Position numbers and translations under genes: made by a program. The notes beneath the pieces are model-generated. The model worked only from the letters and a program-made list of their open reading frames with translations, was not told the origin of the DNA and did no database searches. From assembly GCA_017544005.1 (NCBI GenBank), contig JAFYEZ010000047.1, forward strand, positions 1-59,551: a stretch of 59,551 nucleotides of DNA. Reading direction: 5' to 3'. The stretch is from Bacteroidales bacterium (GTDB lineage: Bacteria > Bacteroidota > Bacteroidia > Bacteroidales > UBA932). How positions within the stretch are numbered: position 1 is the first letter of the stretch; the number at the start of each line of letters is the position of its first letter. This document shows, in pieces, positions 5,672-36,907 of this stretch.

Positions 5672-6418
5672 TTACATCGCCATGCCGCCGTCCACCTGAA
5701 TCACCTGTCCGGAGACATACGAAGCGAGGTCGGAAGCGAGGAAGACGCAGACCTTGGCCACCTCATCCGGCGAGCCGCCGCGGCGCATCGGGATGCCGGC
5801 TTCCCAGGCCTTGAGGGTCTCGGGCGGCATCTGGGCGGTCATCTCGGTGAGGATGAAGCCCGGGGCCACCACGTTGGCACGGACGCCACGCGGGCCGAGT
5901 TCCTTGCCGATGCTCTTGGCCAGGCCGATCATGCCGGCCTTGGAGGCCGAATAGTTGCACTGCCCGGCATTGCCATGAACGCCCACCACGCTGCTGATGT
6001 TGATGATGGAACCGCTGCGCTGCTTCATCATGACCGGCGAGACGGCGTGGATGAAGTTGAAGGCGCTCTTGAGGTTGACCGTCAGCACGCTGTCCCACTG
6101 TGCCTCGGTCATGCGGACCATCAGGCCGTCGCGGGTGATGCCGGCGTTGTTGACCAGAATATCCACCCTCCCCCACTGAGCCACGACCTGCTCCACGGCC
6201 GCGTGCGCCTCGTCAAATGAAGCGGCGTTGGAGGCTACGGCCAATACCTTGACGCCCAGTGCCTCCAGCTCTTTGCAGGTAGCCTGGGCCGTTTCGTCGA
6301 TGGCCAAATCCGTGAATGCAATATCCGCCCCCTCGGCTGCCATCGCCAGCGCGATGCTCTTGCCGATTCCGCGGGCTGCGCCCGTGATGAGGGCAACTTT
6401 TCCTTCGAGCAATTTCAT
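5672..6418 (-). CDS. fabG: 3-oxoacyl-[acyl-carrier-protein] reductase
   Basis: NADPH-dependent short-chain dehydrogenase of type II fatty-acid synthesis, reducing 3-oxoacyl-ACP. The product is 248 residues from the ATG at 6418; a longer upstream frame was rejected because it overlaps rimO and lacks family sequence. The cofactor motif GAARGIG lies at residues 12-18, NNAG near 90, catalytic Ser in NISSVVG and the YSASK active-site pair around 155-159. It lies 10 bp after rimO at the end of the nusB operon. Other SDR reductases look similar, but length and motifs fit FabG well. Confidence 0.9.
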   Translation of the reverse strand: MKLLEGKVALITGAARGIGKSIALAMAAEGADIAFTDLAIDETAQATCKELEALGVKVLAVASNAASFDEAHAAVEQVVAQWGRVDILVNNAGITRDGLMVRMTEAQWDSVLTVNLKSAFNFIHAVSPVMMKQRSGSIINISSVVGVHGNAGQCNYSASKAGMIGLAKSIGKELGPRGVRANVVAPGFILTEMTAQMPPETLKAWEAGIPMRRGGSPDEVAKVCVFLASDLASYVSGQVIQVDGGMAM

Positions 6419-8749: not shown

Positions 8750-9738
8750 CAGTCGGAGACGTTTTCAGAGAGAATGCACTCCACGAAGCGCGGTTCGAAC
8801 GACCACGTATAGAGGAGCGGCGCAATGGCTGCCGCCGGACGCGGCCCCACGAGGGCGCTGCGCGAGAGCAGGAAGTCGTTGTAATCCACCACGAAAGCGC
8901 CGGGCGCACGCAGCGGTTCCAGCTCCCCGCCGAAGGGGATCCGGCAGGTCACCTCCAGTTTGGAGGGCAGCAGGATCAGCTGCTTGCCGGAGGGCACGTT
9001 CACCGCGGAGAGATCCACCGTGAAGCGCTGTTCCACATAGCGGGCGACGGGGGCATAATAGGCCACCGCAGCAGGCTCCACCCGCAGGCCGCGCCGCGTC
9101 TCGAGCGGCACGTAGCCGCGCAGGGACTTGTCCACCCGCGAGAGCGACAGGGTCCGCGTGGCGACGGTCGAGACCGCCTCCAGCTCGTCCGTGTTGCCAT
9201 AGACCAGCACGGAATCCGGCGTCAGCTGCAGTTCAGCCGTTTCCATATACTGCGGCCGGCAGGAAACCGAGAGCCGCGAAGTGACGGGCACCTTCTTGCA
9301 GGACTGCGGCACAAACGTGAAGGAGAGCGGGGTGGAAGGAATGTAGTTCACATCAAAGGAGCTGCCCACGGCATCGTCCAGCTGGTCGCGGAACTGCGAC
9401 AGATCCAGCAGGAAGACGTCCGGGCGCGTGGGATCGGCCGTAAAATAGCGGGCATCCGCCTTGATTTCCAGCGGCTTCCCGCGGCCGTCCCGGTGGCCCA
9501 GGATATAGAACCCGGCCGCCTGGCCGCCCAGCACCAACTCTTCTTCGGATACCGCCGTCGGGGCGTATCCCTCCAGATTGGCGGTGACGCGGACGCGGTA
9601 CTGCAGGTACACCATGTAGTCCTGCGTCAGGTTGTGGGCCGTCCAGGTGACGAAAGCCAGCAGAAAGGAGAGTATCAACAAGATGACATCTCCTTTCTTC
9701 AGGCTGATTCTGAGCCTTCTATGGGCTTTTCGGGCCAA
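8749..9738 (-). CDS. YbbR-like domain protein
   Basis: A 329-residue single-pass membrane protein with an N-terminal membrane helix at residues ~18-36 (VILLILSFLLAFVTW) and an extracytoplasmic region built of YbbR-type beta repeats. YbbR/CdaR proteins of Firmicutes regulate c-di-AMP cyclase, but no cyclase gene is adjacent here, so that role is not implied. The order yajC-ybbR-coaE is common in Bacteroidota. It lies 4 bp after yajC and overlaps coaE by one base. Confidence 0.85.
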   Translation of the reverse strand: MARKAHRRLRISLKKGDVILLILSFLLAFVTWTAHNLTQDYMVYLQYRVRVTANLEGYAPTAVSEEELVLGGQAAGFYILGHRDGRGKPLEIKADARYFTADPTRPDVFLLDLSQFRDQLDDAVGSSFDVNYIPSTPLSFTFVPQSCKKVPVTSRLSVSCRPQYMETAELQLTPDSVLVYGNTDELEAVSTVATRTLSLSRVDKSLRGYVPLETRRGLRVEPAAVAYYAPVARYVEQRFTVDLSAVNVPSGKQLILLPSKLEVTCRIPFGGELEPLRAPGAFVVDYNDFLLSRSALVGPRPAAAIAPLLYTWSFEPRFVECILSENVSD

Positions 9739-34300: not shown

Positions 34301-34562
34301 CCGCCACCGAGAAGGTGAACGTCTCACCCTGGTCGTCCCAGCCGATGATCTCGTCACCGACTGTCCAGGACGGGGTAATCGTGTGGGTTGACGCATTATC
34401 CACGTCGTACGTCACGCGGGTAGCATCCGGAGCTACAATCGTCGCCGTCAGGTTCAGTTTTCCATTGTCGATGGTCTGTCCGCCATCAATATCACTGTTC
34501 TGGCAGGAAGCTGCAAAAAGCAGAATCGCCAGAATCGAAACAAATCTCGTAATCTTTTTCAT
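31320..34562 (-). CDS. Large beta-helix surface lipoprotein with fimbrillin-like N-terminus
   Basis: A 1080-residue predicted lipoprotein: signal peptide ending LFAASC (Cys20). The N-terminal ~270 residues resemble a fimbrillin-like module with TRVTYD and SWTVGDEIIGWDD. The rest is a right-handed beta-helix type region with many GGTF, SGGYY and NGGYYYG turns. It is arranged in three units, each opening with an AIEDAF/SIESAF/SWGAAV segment and a hydrophobic strand followed by DMNGHNL, DLNGHTI or DLNGRTI. The last third of the gene (31320-32200) is clearly more AT-rich than the rest. Likely a surface-exposed adhesin or binding protein; ligand unknown. A 54-residue peptide gene lies 21 bp upstream. 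Confidence 0.8.
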   Translation of the reverse strand: MKKITRFVSILAILLFAASCQNSDIDGGQTIDNGKLNLTATIVAPDATRVTYDVDNASTHTITPSWTVGDEIIGWDDQGETFTFSVAAVDGSGRATLDAGSYVPGAATKLYAIYSPDNVEGDIAGGKLTVNLGTQSGVLDDDSPVLMCATAEITAGSASLSFENQTAIIGVTKFKLPAAATVTSISVDGLITSGTFEVDGGGNLVLTPATAPATATATGSWATGAGNICETAIYFATLPTAGAKIALRASDGANDYGNLASIAATDIVAGNYYYMQKNLGAPVADVNGVKYGAIEDAFNAANLATVNVTLTLLADCSTTTRFDIDDAGSGAVTIDMNGHNLTTSKQIRATGRTLTILDSSSATLAEQGTITSTYAGGRAIYVEAGGTLYYQGCTITHSSSSYGTIYLTGDGTRGYLSAGKAISENYRAISVVTGAEAELSGSIVLWSTGHTIVATESAMIRISGGTFSRGGSSGYNVVRVGGAGAVVNITGGVFDNTESTSAGTLIYAGSDGGVINVSGGFFNSTGVNPVGSNGTTAANGVAYVTGGCFNKPIQETYAKSSTDVIYTNVLNPDAGTSDTYPFTVSDVSATPTVADVKQSTYSWNHGSIESAFKGADQRAKGYGPATLTLKADATASRTMAVNSGNTYNVVLDLNGHTISSTASPAISAAGKLVINDLGSSGELTTTGAVALSVSDGSTSFNSGSFYGTTNAVNVSGGTLDIYDGHFYGGGAADIVKTGGTLALSGGYYRYEPDDAWMADGYASAAASEVFKARSYDYQVKASSVVATVAGKNYGSWGAAVAAACSYNGSEDTIRIQLLESIITDAAVNLTHSTKPIKLDLNGRTIETSVSSLLNSNNSLTVIDSGSPKGMISSSESNVVNKIGTGTVSLIGILIKTTKTVASGTYGAQAVVRVNNSSSTLIITDCILYSTGMLTGVSNAAGTLTITDTEITSGSESDGLVGVFTGGSNANTTLTNCRVYTTSTTASRGIFYIGTSESAGTLSVNGGYYYGKIFGRGYTSSTQLPHLTISSGYFNVEPKSGTYYPTFATGTSVQNVDPAVTQLNSVTKKTLSYNYKVDTTP

Positions 34563-34583
34563 TTGCTTTCTGTGTTAAATCGT

Positions 34584-34748
34584 TTATCCTAAATCATCTT
34601 CGCCGAGGCCTGAGCCCGGATAATTGGGAATCGGCGGCATGCTGAACGGGCTGACCGCCTGACAGCAGCCCCCTTCGAGGGTGATCTGGAAAAGCTTGAG
34701 CGCCGGAGCCTGGTAGCGGGCGCGGGATTGGATCTGTTCCTGTTTCAT
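34584..34748 (-). CDS. Small peptide (54 aa) preceding the beta-helix lipoprotein
   Basis: A 54-codon gene, ATG at 34748 and TAA at 34584. It starts MKQEQIQSRARYQAPALKLF, has a Cys-Cys pair (GGCCQAV) near residue 28 and a Pro/Gly-rich, acidic end (PPIPNYPGSGLGEDDLG). It has no signal peptide. The RYQAP-x5-F pattern resembles a second small gene at 42675-42806, also just upstream of a fimbrillin-like lipoprotein. Such tiny genes are common beside Bacteroidales surface-protein genes but are unassigned. Conserved pattern and position support it as real. Confidence 0.65.
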   Translation of the reverse strand: MKQEQIQSRARYQAPALKLFQITLEGGCCQAVSPFSMPPIPNYPGSGLGEDDLG

Positions 34749-34799
34749 TTCTCTAACTTTTTGATCTATTGTTGTTATTATTTAAAACTTGCTCGACAC

Positions 34800-34836
34800 A
34801 AAACAAAAATGCGCACCGCCCTCACGGGCGACGCGC
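34800..34836 (-). terminator. Attenuator-like terminator in the lipoprotein leader
   Basis: The minus-strand hairpin at 34811-34836 pairs GCGC and CGCCC with their complements around a GTGA loop and a two-base internal mismatch. It is followed by ATTTTTGTTTT. It lies between the leader frame and the 54-codon gene, so it could end transcription before the operon. Confidence 0.5.
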
Positions 34837-34843
34837 AATATAT

Positions 34844-34957
34844 CTAAATCATTGATTTATAGCTACATAATACCCCCCCCCATACAATATTGGCCGTAAG
34901 GCCTCGCGGAGAGAGCGTGCGGGAATCGGAAGAAAGCGACTTGCAGTATTCTTTCAT
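34844..34957 (-). CDS. Candidate 37-residue leader peptide crossing a nine-base G tract
   Basis: The frame runs from ATG at 34957 to TAG at 34844 and begins MKEYCKSLSSDSRTLS. The G tract (34873-34881 on the plus strand as C9) is read inside TGG-GGG-GGG-G, giving VWGGV. One base fewer would move the stop to 34849 and one more to 34863. The ATG lies five bases after a TAATTTTG promoter element, so the message would be nearly leaderless. There is no family match; the call rests on position and open frame only. Confidence 0.4.
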   Translation of the reverse strand: MKEYCKSLSSDSRTLSPRGLTANIVWGGVLCSYKSMI

Positions 34958-34962
34958 GCCTA

Positions 34963-34970
34963 CAAAATTA
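34963..34970 (-). promoter_or_regulatory. Candidate -7 element of the lipoprotein leader
   Basis: TAATTTTG on the minus strand. A TTTG at 34994-34997 could serve as -33, at a spacing of 23 instead of about 19. Confidence 0.4.
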
Positions 34971-35094
34971 TAAAAAAATCTCCCGTTATGAACCAAATTG
35001 AACCAGCAAATTTGAAGAAAGAACGCACTGCAAAAACATATTCCGCAGCAACTGCCATTTTGTCGCACGTGCGCGATTGGCAAACAATTTGCCG

Positions 35095-35102
35095 TATCTT
35101 TG
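35095..35102 (+). promoter_or_regulatory. -7 element of the grpE-dnaJ promoter
   Basis: TATCTTTG, 39 bases before the grpE ATG. TTGG at 35077-35080 may be the upstream element. Confidence 0.6.
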
Positions 35103-35141
35103 CGCGACGGAAAAAGCATCCGCCAATGAAATATCGTGATT

Positions 35142-35723
35142 ATGAGCAAAAAAAATAAAGATACCAAGAAGCACAACCCGGAAGAATCCACGCAGCAGGA
35201 GCAGAGCGTAAACGAAAAAACACAGTCCGCGGCAGATAATGCGCAGGCGGCTGCCGAAAATGCAGCGCCCGCACCGGAGACGGACACCCTGCGGGCCGAA
35301 CTCGAGGCCGCCAACGACAAATACCTGCGTCTGATGGCCGAGTTCGACAATTACCGCCGGCGCACGGCACGCGAACGGCTGGAACTGATTGAAACGGCCG
35401 ACAAGGAAGTCCTGACCGGCTTCCTCCCGGTGGTGGACGACTGCGAGCGCGCCCTTGATACGCTGCGCAACTCAGAAGCCTCCGAGGCGGCAGTCGAGGG
35501 TACCGAACTGATCCTCAACAAATTGATGAGCTATCTGAAATCCAAGGGCGTGGAGAAGATCGACGCCAAGGGCAAACCCTTCAATACCGATGAGCACGAA
35601 GCGGTGGCCCAGTTCCCCGCGCCGGCCCCGGAGCAGAAGAATATAGTGATTGACGTCACGCAGAACGGCTACAAGCTGCGCGGCAAGGTGATTCGCTATG
35701 CCAAGGTGGTAGTAGGTATTTAA
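35142..35723 (+). CDS. grpE: Nucleotide exchange factor GrpE
   Basis: Cofactor that drives ADP release from DnaK during protein folding. It has 193 residues from the ATG at 35142; a GTG six bases earlier is less likely. A charged, disordered N-terminus ([20 protein letters not shown]) leads into the long helix with [19 protein letters not shown], then the beta domain with [17 protein letters not shown] at the end. It lies 17 bp before dnaJ, and dnaK is at the right end of this window. Confidence 0.95.
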
Positions 35724-35740
35724 TTCGAGGAGAAGCAGTT

Positions 35741-36907
35741 ATGGCAGAGAAAAGAGATTACTACGAAGTGCTGGGCGTTGACAAGAACGCTTCGCCGGAA
35801 GAGATCAAGAAGGCCTACCGCAAGAAGGCCATCCAGTACCACCCGGACAAGAATCCGGGCGACAAGGAGGCGGAGGAGAAGTTCAAGGAGGCGGCCGAGG
35901 CCTACGATGTGCTGAGCGACCCGAACAAGAAGGCGCGCTACGACCAGTTCGGCCATGCGGGCATGGAGGGCCAGGGCGGATTCAGCGGCGGCGGTTTCTC
36001 GATGGAGGACATTTTCTCGCACTTCGGCGACATATTCGGCAGCGCCTTCGGCGGCAGCGGTTTCGGTGGATTCGGAGGGTTCGGTGGATTCGGAGGCGGC
36101 GGCCGGCAGCGGGTGCAGCGCGGCAGCGATATTCGTATCCGCGTGAAACTCAGCCTCGAAGAGGTCGTGCACGGCGTAGAGAAGAAGGTCCGGATCAACA
36201 AGACGGTGGCCTGCCCGGATTGCGGCGGCCGCGGCGCGGCATCCAGTGCGGACATCAAGACCTGCGACCGTTGCCACGGCACCGGTACGGTGACGCGCGT
36301 GCAGCAGACCATCCTCGGACAGATGCAGACCAGCTCCCCCTGCCCCGATTGCGGCGGCACCGGGCGCAAGATTACCAAGCCCTGCCCGCATTGCGGCGGA
36401 TCGGGTCTGGTCAAGAAATCGGAAGAAATCTCCTTCAAGATTCCCGCCGGTGTGGCCGACGGCATGCAACTGACGGTTCAGGGCAAAGGCAACGCCGCTC
36501 CGAACGGCGGTATCAACGGCGACCTGCTCGTGGTCATCGAAGAGGAGAACACCACCGAACTCGTGCGCGAGGGCAACGACCTGGTTTACACGCTCTACCT
36601 CTCCATTCCGGACGCCGTGCTCGGCTGCTCGGCCGAGGTTCCCGGCGTGGACGGCAAGCTGAAGGTCAAGATTGATCCCGGCACCCAGCCCGGCAAGATC
36701 CTCCGCCTGCGCGGCAAAGGCGTGCCGGACGTGAACGGCTATGGCACCGGCGACATGCTCATATATATACAGGTATGGATGCCGAAGAAGCTTTCCCGCA
36801 CCGAGAAGGAGATGATCGAATCCCTGCGCGGGAGCGACTCCTTCAAGCCCGAACCAGAGCGCGAAGAGAAGAATTTCTTTGACAGATTCCGAAAAATGTT
36901 CGGATAA
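35741..36907 (+). CDS. dnaJ: Chaperone DnaJ
   Basis: Hsp40 co-chaperone that delivers substrates to DnaK and stimulates its ATPase, 388 residues. The J domain holds the HPD motif in [16 protein letters not shown] (near residue 33). A Gly/Phe-rich linker follows with repeated GFGGFGG. The zinc centre has four CxxCxGxG units ([32 protein letters not shown]). The C-terminal substrate domains follow. It is a complete type I DnaJ in an operon with grpE. Confidence 0.97.

Follow-up and report, generated by a model that had tools for sequence, protein, structure and literature searches.

A G tract in a leader reading frame as a candidate phase-variable attenuator ahead of a Bacteroidales lipoprotein gene

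Anatomy of the leader and the genes behind it

Why would a short reading frame run through nine consecutive G residues immediately ahead of a terminator-like hairpin and a lipoprotein gene? We addressed this question in a 59,551-nucleotide contig of a Bacteroidales bacterium (GCA_017544005.1, JAFYEZ010000047.1), referred to here as the window. A sequence-only reading had proposed that slippage at the tract moves the stop of a leader frame relative to the hairpin and thereby switches the genes behind it on or off. The features of the locus, in the order in which the minus strand is read, are as follows.

35136-35723: neighboring gene, divergent from the leader (position from the ORF list)
34970-34963, minus strand: −7 box TAATTTTG (TAnnTTTG), by direct reading
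34957-34844, minus strand: leader ORF at G9, 37 codons, with its ATG at 34957-34955 and its stop ending at 34844
34908-34915, minus strand: pyrimidine run CTCTCTCC, which can pair with the G tract according to the fold
34881-34873, minus strand: G9 tract, the proposed slippage site, by direct reading
34861-34845, minus strand: 3'-end motif TATAAATCAATGATTTA, containing the G8- and G9-phase stops
34837-34810, minus strand: predicted terminator hairpin of 12 pairs (9 G-C) with the loop GTGA
34809-34800, minus strand: T-rich tail TTTTTGTTTT
34748-34584, minus strand: small ORF of 54 aa (MKQEQIQSRARYQAPALKLFQITLEGG..), the first gene past the terminator
34562-31320, minus strand: lipoprotein gene of 1080 aa (MKKITRFVSILAILLFAASC, then QNSD..), the presumed switched product

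Upon re-reading, every coordinate of the 37-codon frame that crosses the G9 tract at 34873-34881 matched the earlier description, and the recomputed stops were identical to those reported: they end at 34844 at G9, 34849 at G8, and 34863 at G10, which is 29, 24, and 10 nt after the tract, respectively. The promoter-like sequence that had been placed at 34963-34970 is a good −7 box, TAnnTTTG being the Bacteroidota −7 consensus, but inspection of the window revealed no clear −33 element upstream of it. Since the ATG lies just 5 nt past the box, the leader ORF is possibly leaderless or nearly so. At G9 it encodes MKEYCKSLSSDSRTLSPRGLTANIVWGGVLCSYKSMI followed by the stop, with the C-terminal end GGVLCSYKSMI. 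A conserved YKS peptide derived from TATAAATCA was considered and dropped, as the codon frame is not kept in other leaders. Pairing between CTCTCTCC and the G tract may form a pause hairpin. By eye, a sequence resembling GTTCAATTTGGTTCAT, in one orientation or the other, is found close to the promoter box at 34988-35003 of the window and in two related loci introduced below (L034 and L046); it is possibly an operator.

The hairpin and its T-rich tail also stood as described, except that the hairpin begins 6 bases after the G9 stop and not eight. At G8 and G10 the corresponding distances are 11 nt and 25 nt, and the frame stays short of the hairpin in all three phases. Together with its flanks, the hairpin folds at −23.8 kcal/mol (z = −4.35), a value equaled by 0 of 200 shuffles, and from sequence and fold it is predicted to be a strong canonical terminator. 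Rfam covariance models gave no match up to an E value of 5 in 34500-35200. The neighboring gene at 35136-35723, presumably GrpE-like, is divergent from the leader, so we see no same-strand upstream gene for the terminator to serve. Furthermore, no TAnnTTTG box is present within 110 nt downstream of the window tract. In light of these two observations, it is most likely that transcripts of the lipoprotein gene start at the TAATTTTG box and have to cross the hairpin.

What had been called an operon does consist of genes behind the leader, and its extent is one small ORF and one lipoprotein gene. The small ORF had no Pfam or NCBIfam match, and no family of either collection scored above its cut-off for the lipoprotein. 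The latter is 35 to 40% identical to the lipoproteins that follow L034 (G000) and both L046 leaders (G021), and a search of named genomes returned no relative. The lipobox and these relatives lead us to call the product a surface lipoprotein, and it is presumably surface exposed.

Judged from sequence, this leader is probably a phase-variable transcription attenuator, in which slippage of a G tract in a leader peptide frame controls termination. With transcription beginning at the TAnnTTTG box, the leader ORF would be translated by a ribosome that crosses the G tract. A stop near or beyond the hairpin would leave the ribosome in a position to block terminator folding, and polymerase would then continue into both downstream genes (high expression); a stop far upstream would allow the terminator to fold (low expression). 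The gain or loss of one G during replication would shift the frame and result in a heritable, reversible change of state. The upstream pyrimidine pairing could act as a pause hairpin, giving the ribosome time to catch up.

A switch based on a shifted stop has a precedent, the closest one known to us, established experimentally in another phylum. The report on S. gallolyticus pil1 and pil3 (Danne et al. 2014, PMC3894217) describes GCAGA repeats in a leader ORF, 22 copies in the case of pil1 of UCN34, that set the position of the stop. Expression there is low when the stop lies 39 to 49 bp before the terminator and high when it lies within the terminator or 4 bp ahead of it, and the mechanism was confirmed by chloramphenicol and by start-codon and hairpin mutants. 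By this rule, the window would be high at G9 (6 nt), intermediate or high at G8 (11 nt), and low at G10 (25 nt). We infer this on/off assignment of tract lengths, together with slippage of the tract in one population, termination in vivo, and translational control of the terminator.

Recurrence in related genomes

The G run alone is unremarkable for the composition of the window (4.5 occurrences of G8 expected from dinucleotide shuffles, 2 overlapping matches observed); its arrangement exceeds chance. By our own count, the window genome, a 1.57-Mb draft that is 86% complete, contains 15 runs of at least 7 G, 8 of which have at least 9. Three of these 8 show the leader arrangement, and a fourth lies within a similar small ORF. 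The two further leaders are on contigs C1 and C43 (L034 and L043). A genome of the same genus (G021) carries two leaders (L046), and the one at 9553 is identical, over the compared stretch, to a leader from a goat-rumen Bacteroidales genome (L202, JAFSWO010000006). When the first five leaders were aligned, the segment from tract to hairpin was common and the upstream part differed. The recurring order is promoter box, leader ORF, G7 to G11, 3'-end motif, hairpin, and lipoprotein gene.

A search pattern of at least 7 G, a short gap, and WAATCANNNNKTTA, composed after the first leaders had been seen and counting these among its matches, identified 23 distinct tracts (33 overlapping, by our own count), spread over 13 of the 299 family genomes and 7 of the 25 genera. 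The reversed-pattern control gave 0 matches across the 299 family genomes. Among the matches listed, a lipoprotein-type start was found at most 420 nt downstream of 26 of the 79 tracts with enough downstream sequence, compared with 131 of 2835 random positions in the same loci; the filter behind these counts is rough and produced both false and missed rows. An uncontrolled scan of named genomes yielded at least 118 stretches. Among the 80 loci listed from it, 57 were, by our own count, Bacteroidota according to their titles, and 21 whose titles name other phyla were excluded from the follow-up, the lipoprotein-start count included. Some tracts from that scan, among the matches listed, sit in coding genes.

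Other leaders precede, among others, genes for proteins with BspA-type repeats (L043) and for DUF6562 proteins (L211, L236, and L200, the last of which lacks its upstream part and stands outside the 33-leader set compared below). Of the 33 leaders, 22 are followed by a small ORF that matches a loose motif, according to a filter that took the wrong frame in two leaders and missed L034. In L033 (G000 contig C1), a G9 tract at 2470-2478 on the minus strand lies inside a similar small ORF (MNQEFKNVMGGGSLTYSAPQ..), and a lipoprotein-like gene follows immediately; slippage in this tract would therefore affect the small ORF itself. In L178 (G210), a G9 leader at 5782 stands ahead of a three-gene set that includes a small peptide; we take its members to be a radical-SAM-like gene, the small peptide, and a PqqD-like gene, and a switch of this type may serve a peptide-modification operon.

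Some ordinary genes carry the WAATCANNNNKTTA motif between stop codon and terminator. A covariance model built from five leaders (R1) returned its own members as the top five matches, and the next matches were new leaders (L141, L142) mixed with ordinary terminators bearing an AATCA motif. These matches at ordinary terminators indicate that the motif marks gene ends too and is not exclusive to the switch. In a comparison of motif sites that drew on just 25 of the named loci, a frame of at least 60 nt was open at 7 of 22 sites without a G tract and at 26 of 44 sites beside tracts. The leader thus looks like a miniature gene, with a promoter, a short ORF, a 3'-proximal G tract, and a gene end, placed ahead of an operon. 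Separately, TGATAATCAATAAGTTA is a gene-end motif in L077 (3484), L078 (5383), and L093 (472), where it directly follows the stop codons of ordinary genes and precedes their terminators.

Other G tracts came to light in the same searches. Leader-like tracts of a second kind (Type 2) occur in genomes G008, G011, G013, G026, and G030, at L127 524, L131 3453, 6198, and 8686, L134 697, L135 500, and L137 557; all were kept out of the 33. They precede a partly common peptide frame, KYLYISKIER..RLPEE and a stop, and those of L127 and L131 adjoin what we take to be a DUF1016/YhcG-like gene or its fragments. L134 (G011) and L135 (G013) are near-identical over the compared stretch, with G10 in the former and G11 in the latter. 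In L227 (7238), L237 (7338), and L262 (7023), from Capnocytophaga and Tannerella, G9 to G10 tracts apparently lie, by eye, in the region of SusC-like receptor genes that encodes the N terminus; slippage at this position would truncate the frame. L176 (629, G270) has a G tract within a gene, presumably a type I restriction specificity gene. Tracts directly beside GTGATAATCAGCGAGTTATG-like motifs were seen in L203 (444), L209 (519), L261 (4109), L232 (2659), and L244 (6818); on the other strand, some of these five are, by eye, C tracts soon after promoter-like boxes.

Frames, tract lengths, and competing explanations

Thirty-three leaders were compared. They were picked by hand as those before a small ORF, a lipoprotein gene, or a secreted-protein gene (with the exception of L178 at 5782), and the set was reached from 36 inspected leaders by removing eight and adding five, a choice made after the frames had been seen. 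Seven of the 33 belong to genome G178. Tract lengths were G7 in 4, G8 in 5, G9 in 16, G10 in 7, and G11 in 1. An ATG 36 to 80 nt upstream, with its frame open into the tract, was present in 27 of the 33 leaders, compared with a shuffle mean of 7.8 (maximum 14 in 400 shuffles); the remaining 6 have five GTG codons and one TTG codon at about the same place. Relatedness was handled solely in cluster-collapsed shuffles, where the ATG-led frame was found in 21 of 25 clusters, compared with 6.4 (maximum 14 in 1000 shuffles). The longest phase reached at least 80 nt in 26 of 33 leaders versus 13.3 expected (maximum 23), and after collapsing in 15 of 18 versus 7.0 (maximum 13).

In all 33 leaders, one phase stops at most 17 nt from the tract, and in 30 a phase extends for at least 50 nt, often for 90 to 120 nt; the stops of many leaders are regularly spaced at about 3 to 7, 14 to 17, and 90 to 120 nt. 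The leaders without a read-through phase are those of the window, L046 at 3305, and L142, which represent an atypical or decayed form. Seventeen of the 33 leaders carry the strict box at −110 to −60 of the tract (1.8 expected) and 16 lack it; within 110 nt downstream of the tract it was found in none of the 33 (2.2 expected). For the hairpins of the 33 leaders, the mean fold z was −2.0, with 16 of 33 below −2 and 2 of 33 above 0.

A wider set of 44, composed of the 33, the eight removed leaders, and L128, L196, and L199, gave an ATG frame in 32 (12.0 expected, maximum 20), a long phase in 31 (17.4 expected, maximum 26), and a box upstream in 18 (1.8 expected) and downstream in 2 (3.1 expected). 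Taken alone, the 11 added candidates were at chance, with an ATG frame in 5 (3.9 expected) and a long phase in 5 (4.0 expected). As a control, 57 other tracts with enough flanking sequence, the 11 included, were scored in the same terms: an ATG-led frame was open in 22 (14.6 expected, maximum 24), a box was present in 2 (1.6 expected), and a long phase occurred in 36 (22.8 expected, maximum 31), the last partly because some of these tracts sit in coding genes. We conclude that leaders are distinguished by the ATG frame and the box, and not by a long phase on its own.

Tract length differed in 4 of 4 homologous pairs aligned between assembled genomes, the pairs having been chosen non-systematically for similar leaders and the lengths coming from draft assemblies that may contain homopolymer errors. 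L172 (G178, G8) and L174 (G252, G9) are identical at 424 of 455 aligned columns; the frame of L172 runs 103 nt on, beyond the predicted hairpin, whereas that of L174 stops at the tract. Similarly, L173 has G8 (read-through) and L307 has G9 (early stop). The pairs L170 (G7) and L175 (G8), and L305 (G10) and L308 (G7), are alike behind the tract and unlike before it. Some related leaders are equal in length, such as L172 at 1305 and L175, both G8. About a third of the leaders having a phase of at least 50 nt (9 of 30, by our own count) are assembled in the read-through phase, so no frame is favored. Tract differences between homologous loci are established, as are the anatomy of the leader and its recurrence. 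L173 at 4041 and L307 at 585 are near-identical leaders behind which the small ORFs and lipoproteins have diverged; identity drops sharply in the small ORF, and the leader was thus possibly exchanged as a module.

The main rival explanation, which we consider unlikely, assigns the G tract a role as RNA target or structural element. Its pairing partner would be either a C/U-rich small RNA or the pyrimidine run of the leader itself; expression would be tuned gradually by the length of the tract, and the ORF would be incidental. The 45-nt segment preceding the tract is indeed pyrimidine rich (a fraction of 0.62 in the 33 leaders versus 0.50 in the control), its pairing with the tract is stronger than the shuffle mean in 28 of the 33 (mean duplex z of −0.98), and the folds contain G:pyrimidine helices. 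RepG provides a precedent: in Helicobacter pylori, this small RNA pairs with a G repeat in the tlpB leader and exerts gradual control (PMC8295292). In both cases an mRNA leader carries a homopolymeric G repeat of variable length, but a reading frame crosses the tract here, whereas a small RNA pairs with it there. Pairing leaves unexplained both the retained ATG-led frame into the tract and the regular spacing of the stops.

More doubtful still is translational coupling, by which the terminator would be leaky, the long phase would end before the small ORF and permit re-initiation, and slippage would act on translation and not on termination. The long phase ends about 20 to 40 nt before the small ORF start in several leaders, and in several from other genera the hairpin folds modestly and its T tail is weak. 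However, the window hairpin is strong, canonical, and followed by a tail, and no phase of the window approaches the small ORF. We regard as equally improbable an ordinary attenuator or small terminated transcript whose G tract varies neutrally in evolution and plays no part in switching. Such runs are expected from composition, the 3'-end motif beside the tract occurs at ordinary gene ends too, and the 11 less typical candidates carry no signal; these points are to be set against the 0 matches of the reversed pattern in 299 genomes, the enrichment before lipoproteins, and the position of the tract, which stays similar across several genera though the upstream sequence differs. An inverton was rejected, as 34560-35760 has short imperfect arms only and the pair flanking the promoter is 14 nt long (86%). 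By comparison, the originally proposed switch by a shifted stop gains support from recurrence before lipoprotein genes, frame retention, box placement, differences in tract length, and the S. gallolyticus precedent.

Related systems and significance

Phase variation in the Bacteroidales is known mainly via DNA inversion, and invertible promoters (invertons) drive the stochastic control of Bacteroidales surface structures. The attenuator proposed here would share with invertons the stochastic control of the surface and the bacterial order, but its promoter in the window lacks a long clean flanking inverted repeat. Amino acid attenuators of the trp type consist of a leader peptide and a terminator. 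Those two elements are present here as well; unlike trp-type leaders, however, this one has no run of codons for a single amino acid except the glycines of the tract, and what varies is tract length and not tRNA charging.

The leaders resemble S. gallolyticus pil1 and pil3 (PMC3894217) in having a promoter, a short leader ORF with a slippable repeat, a stop set by the frame relative to a premature terminator, and a surface operon behind. They differ in having a single G7 to G11 run, in their occurrence in Bacteroidales with several copies in some genomes, and in the common 3'-end motif that adjoins the tract; moreover, the pil1/pil3 mechanism was demonstrated with mutants, whereas the Bacteroidales leaders are known from sequence alone. 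A transcript map of B. thetaiotaomicron mentions short ORFs in long 5' UTRs that recall leader peptides (PMC7366714). Our searches of open-access papers, most of them judged by title and the start of the abstract, turned up no account of leaders with homopolymer tracts in this order. By term search, a phase-variation review (PMC11868660) contains neither "leader peptide" nor "attenuation," and a review of the Bacteroidales (PMC12632263) contains neither "slipped" nor "homopolymer."

The locus appears to be best read as a homopolymer-G version of pil1-type leader attenuation, here in Bacteroidales. We also lean, by a small degree, toward a wider proposal, in which members of the family carry several such G-attenuator switches per genome, each before a different surface lipoprotein, giving rise to many combinations of surface states, with the leader serving as an exchangeable module. 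If the attenuator reading is true, the attenuation-type switch of S. gallolyticus would appear to have arisen more than once. Surveys based on inversion would miss the switch, and tract lengths in metagenome reads could reveal its state. Slipped-strand switching through a leader peptide and terminator would then give gut bacteria another means, besides inversion, of varying their surface.
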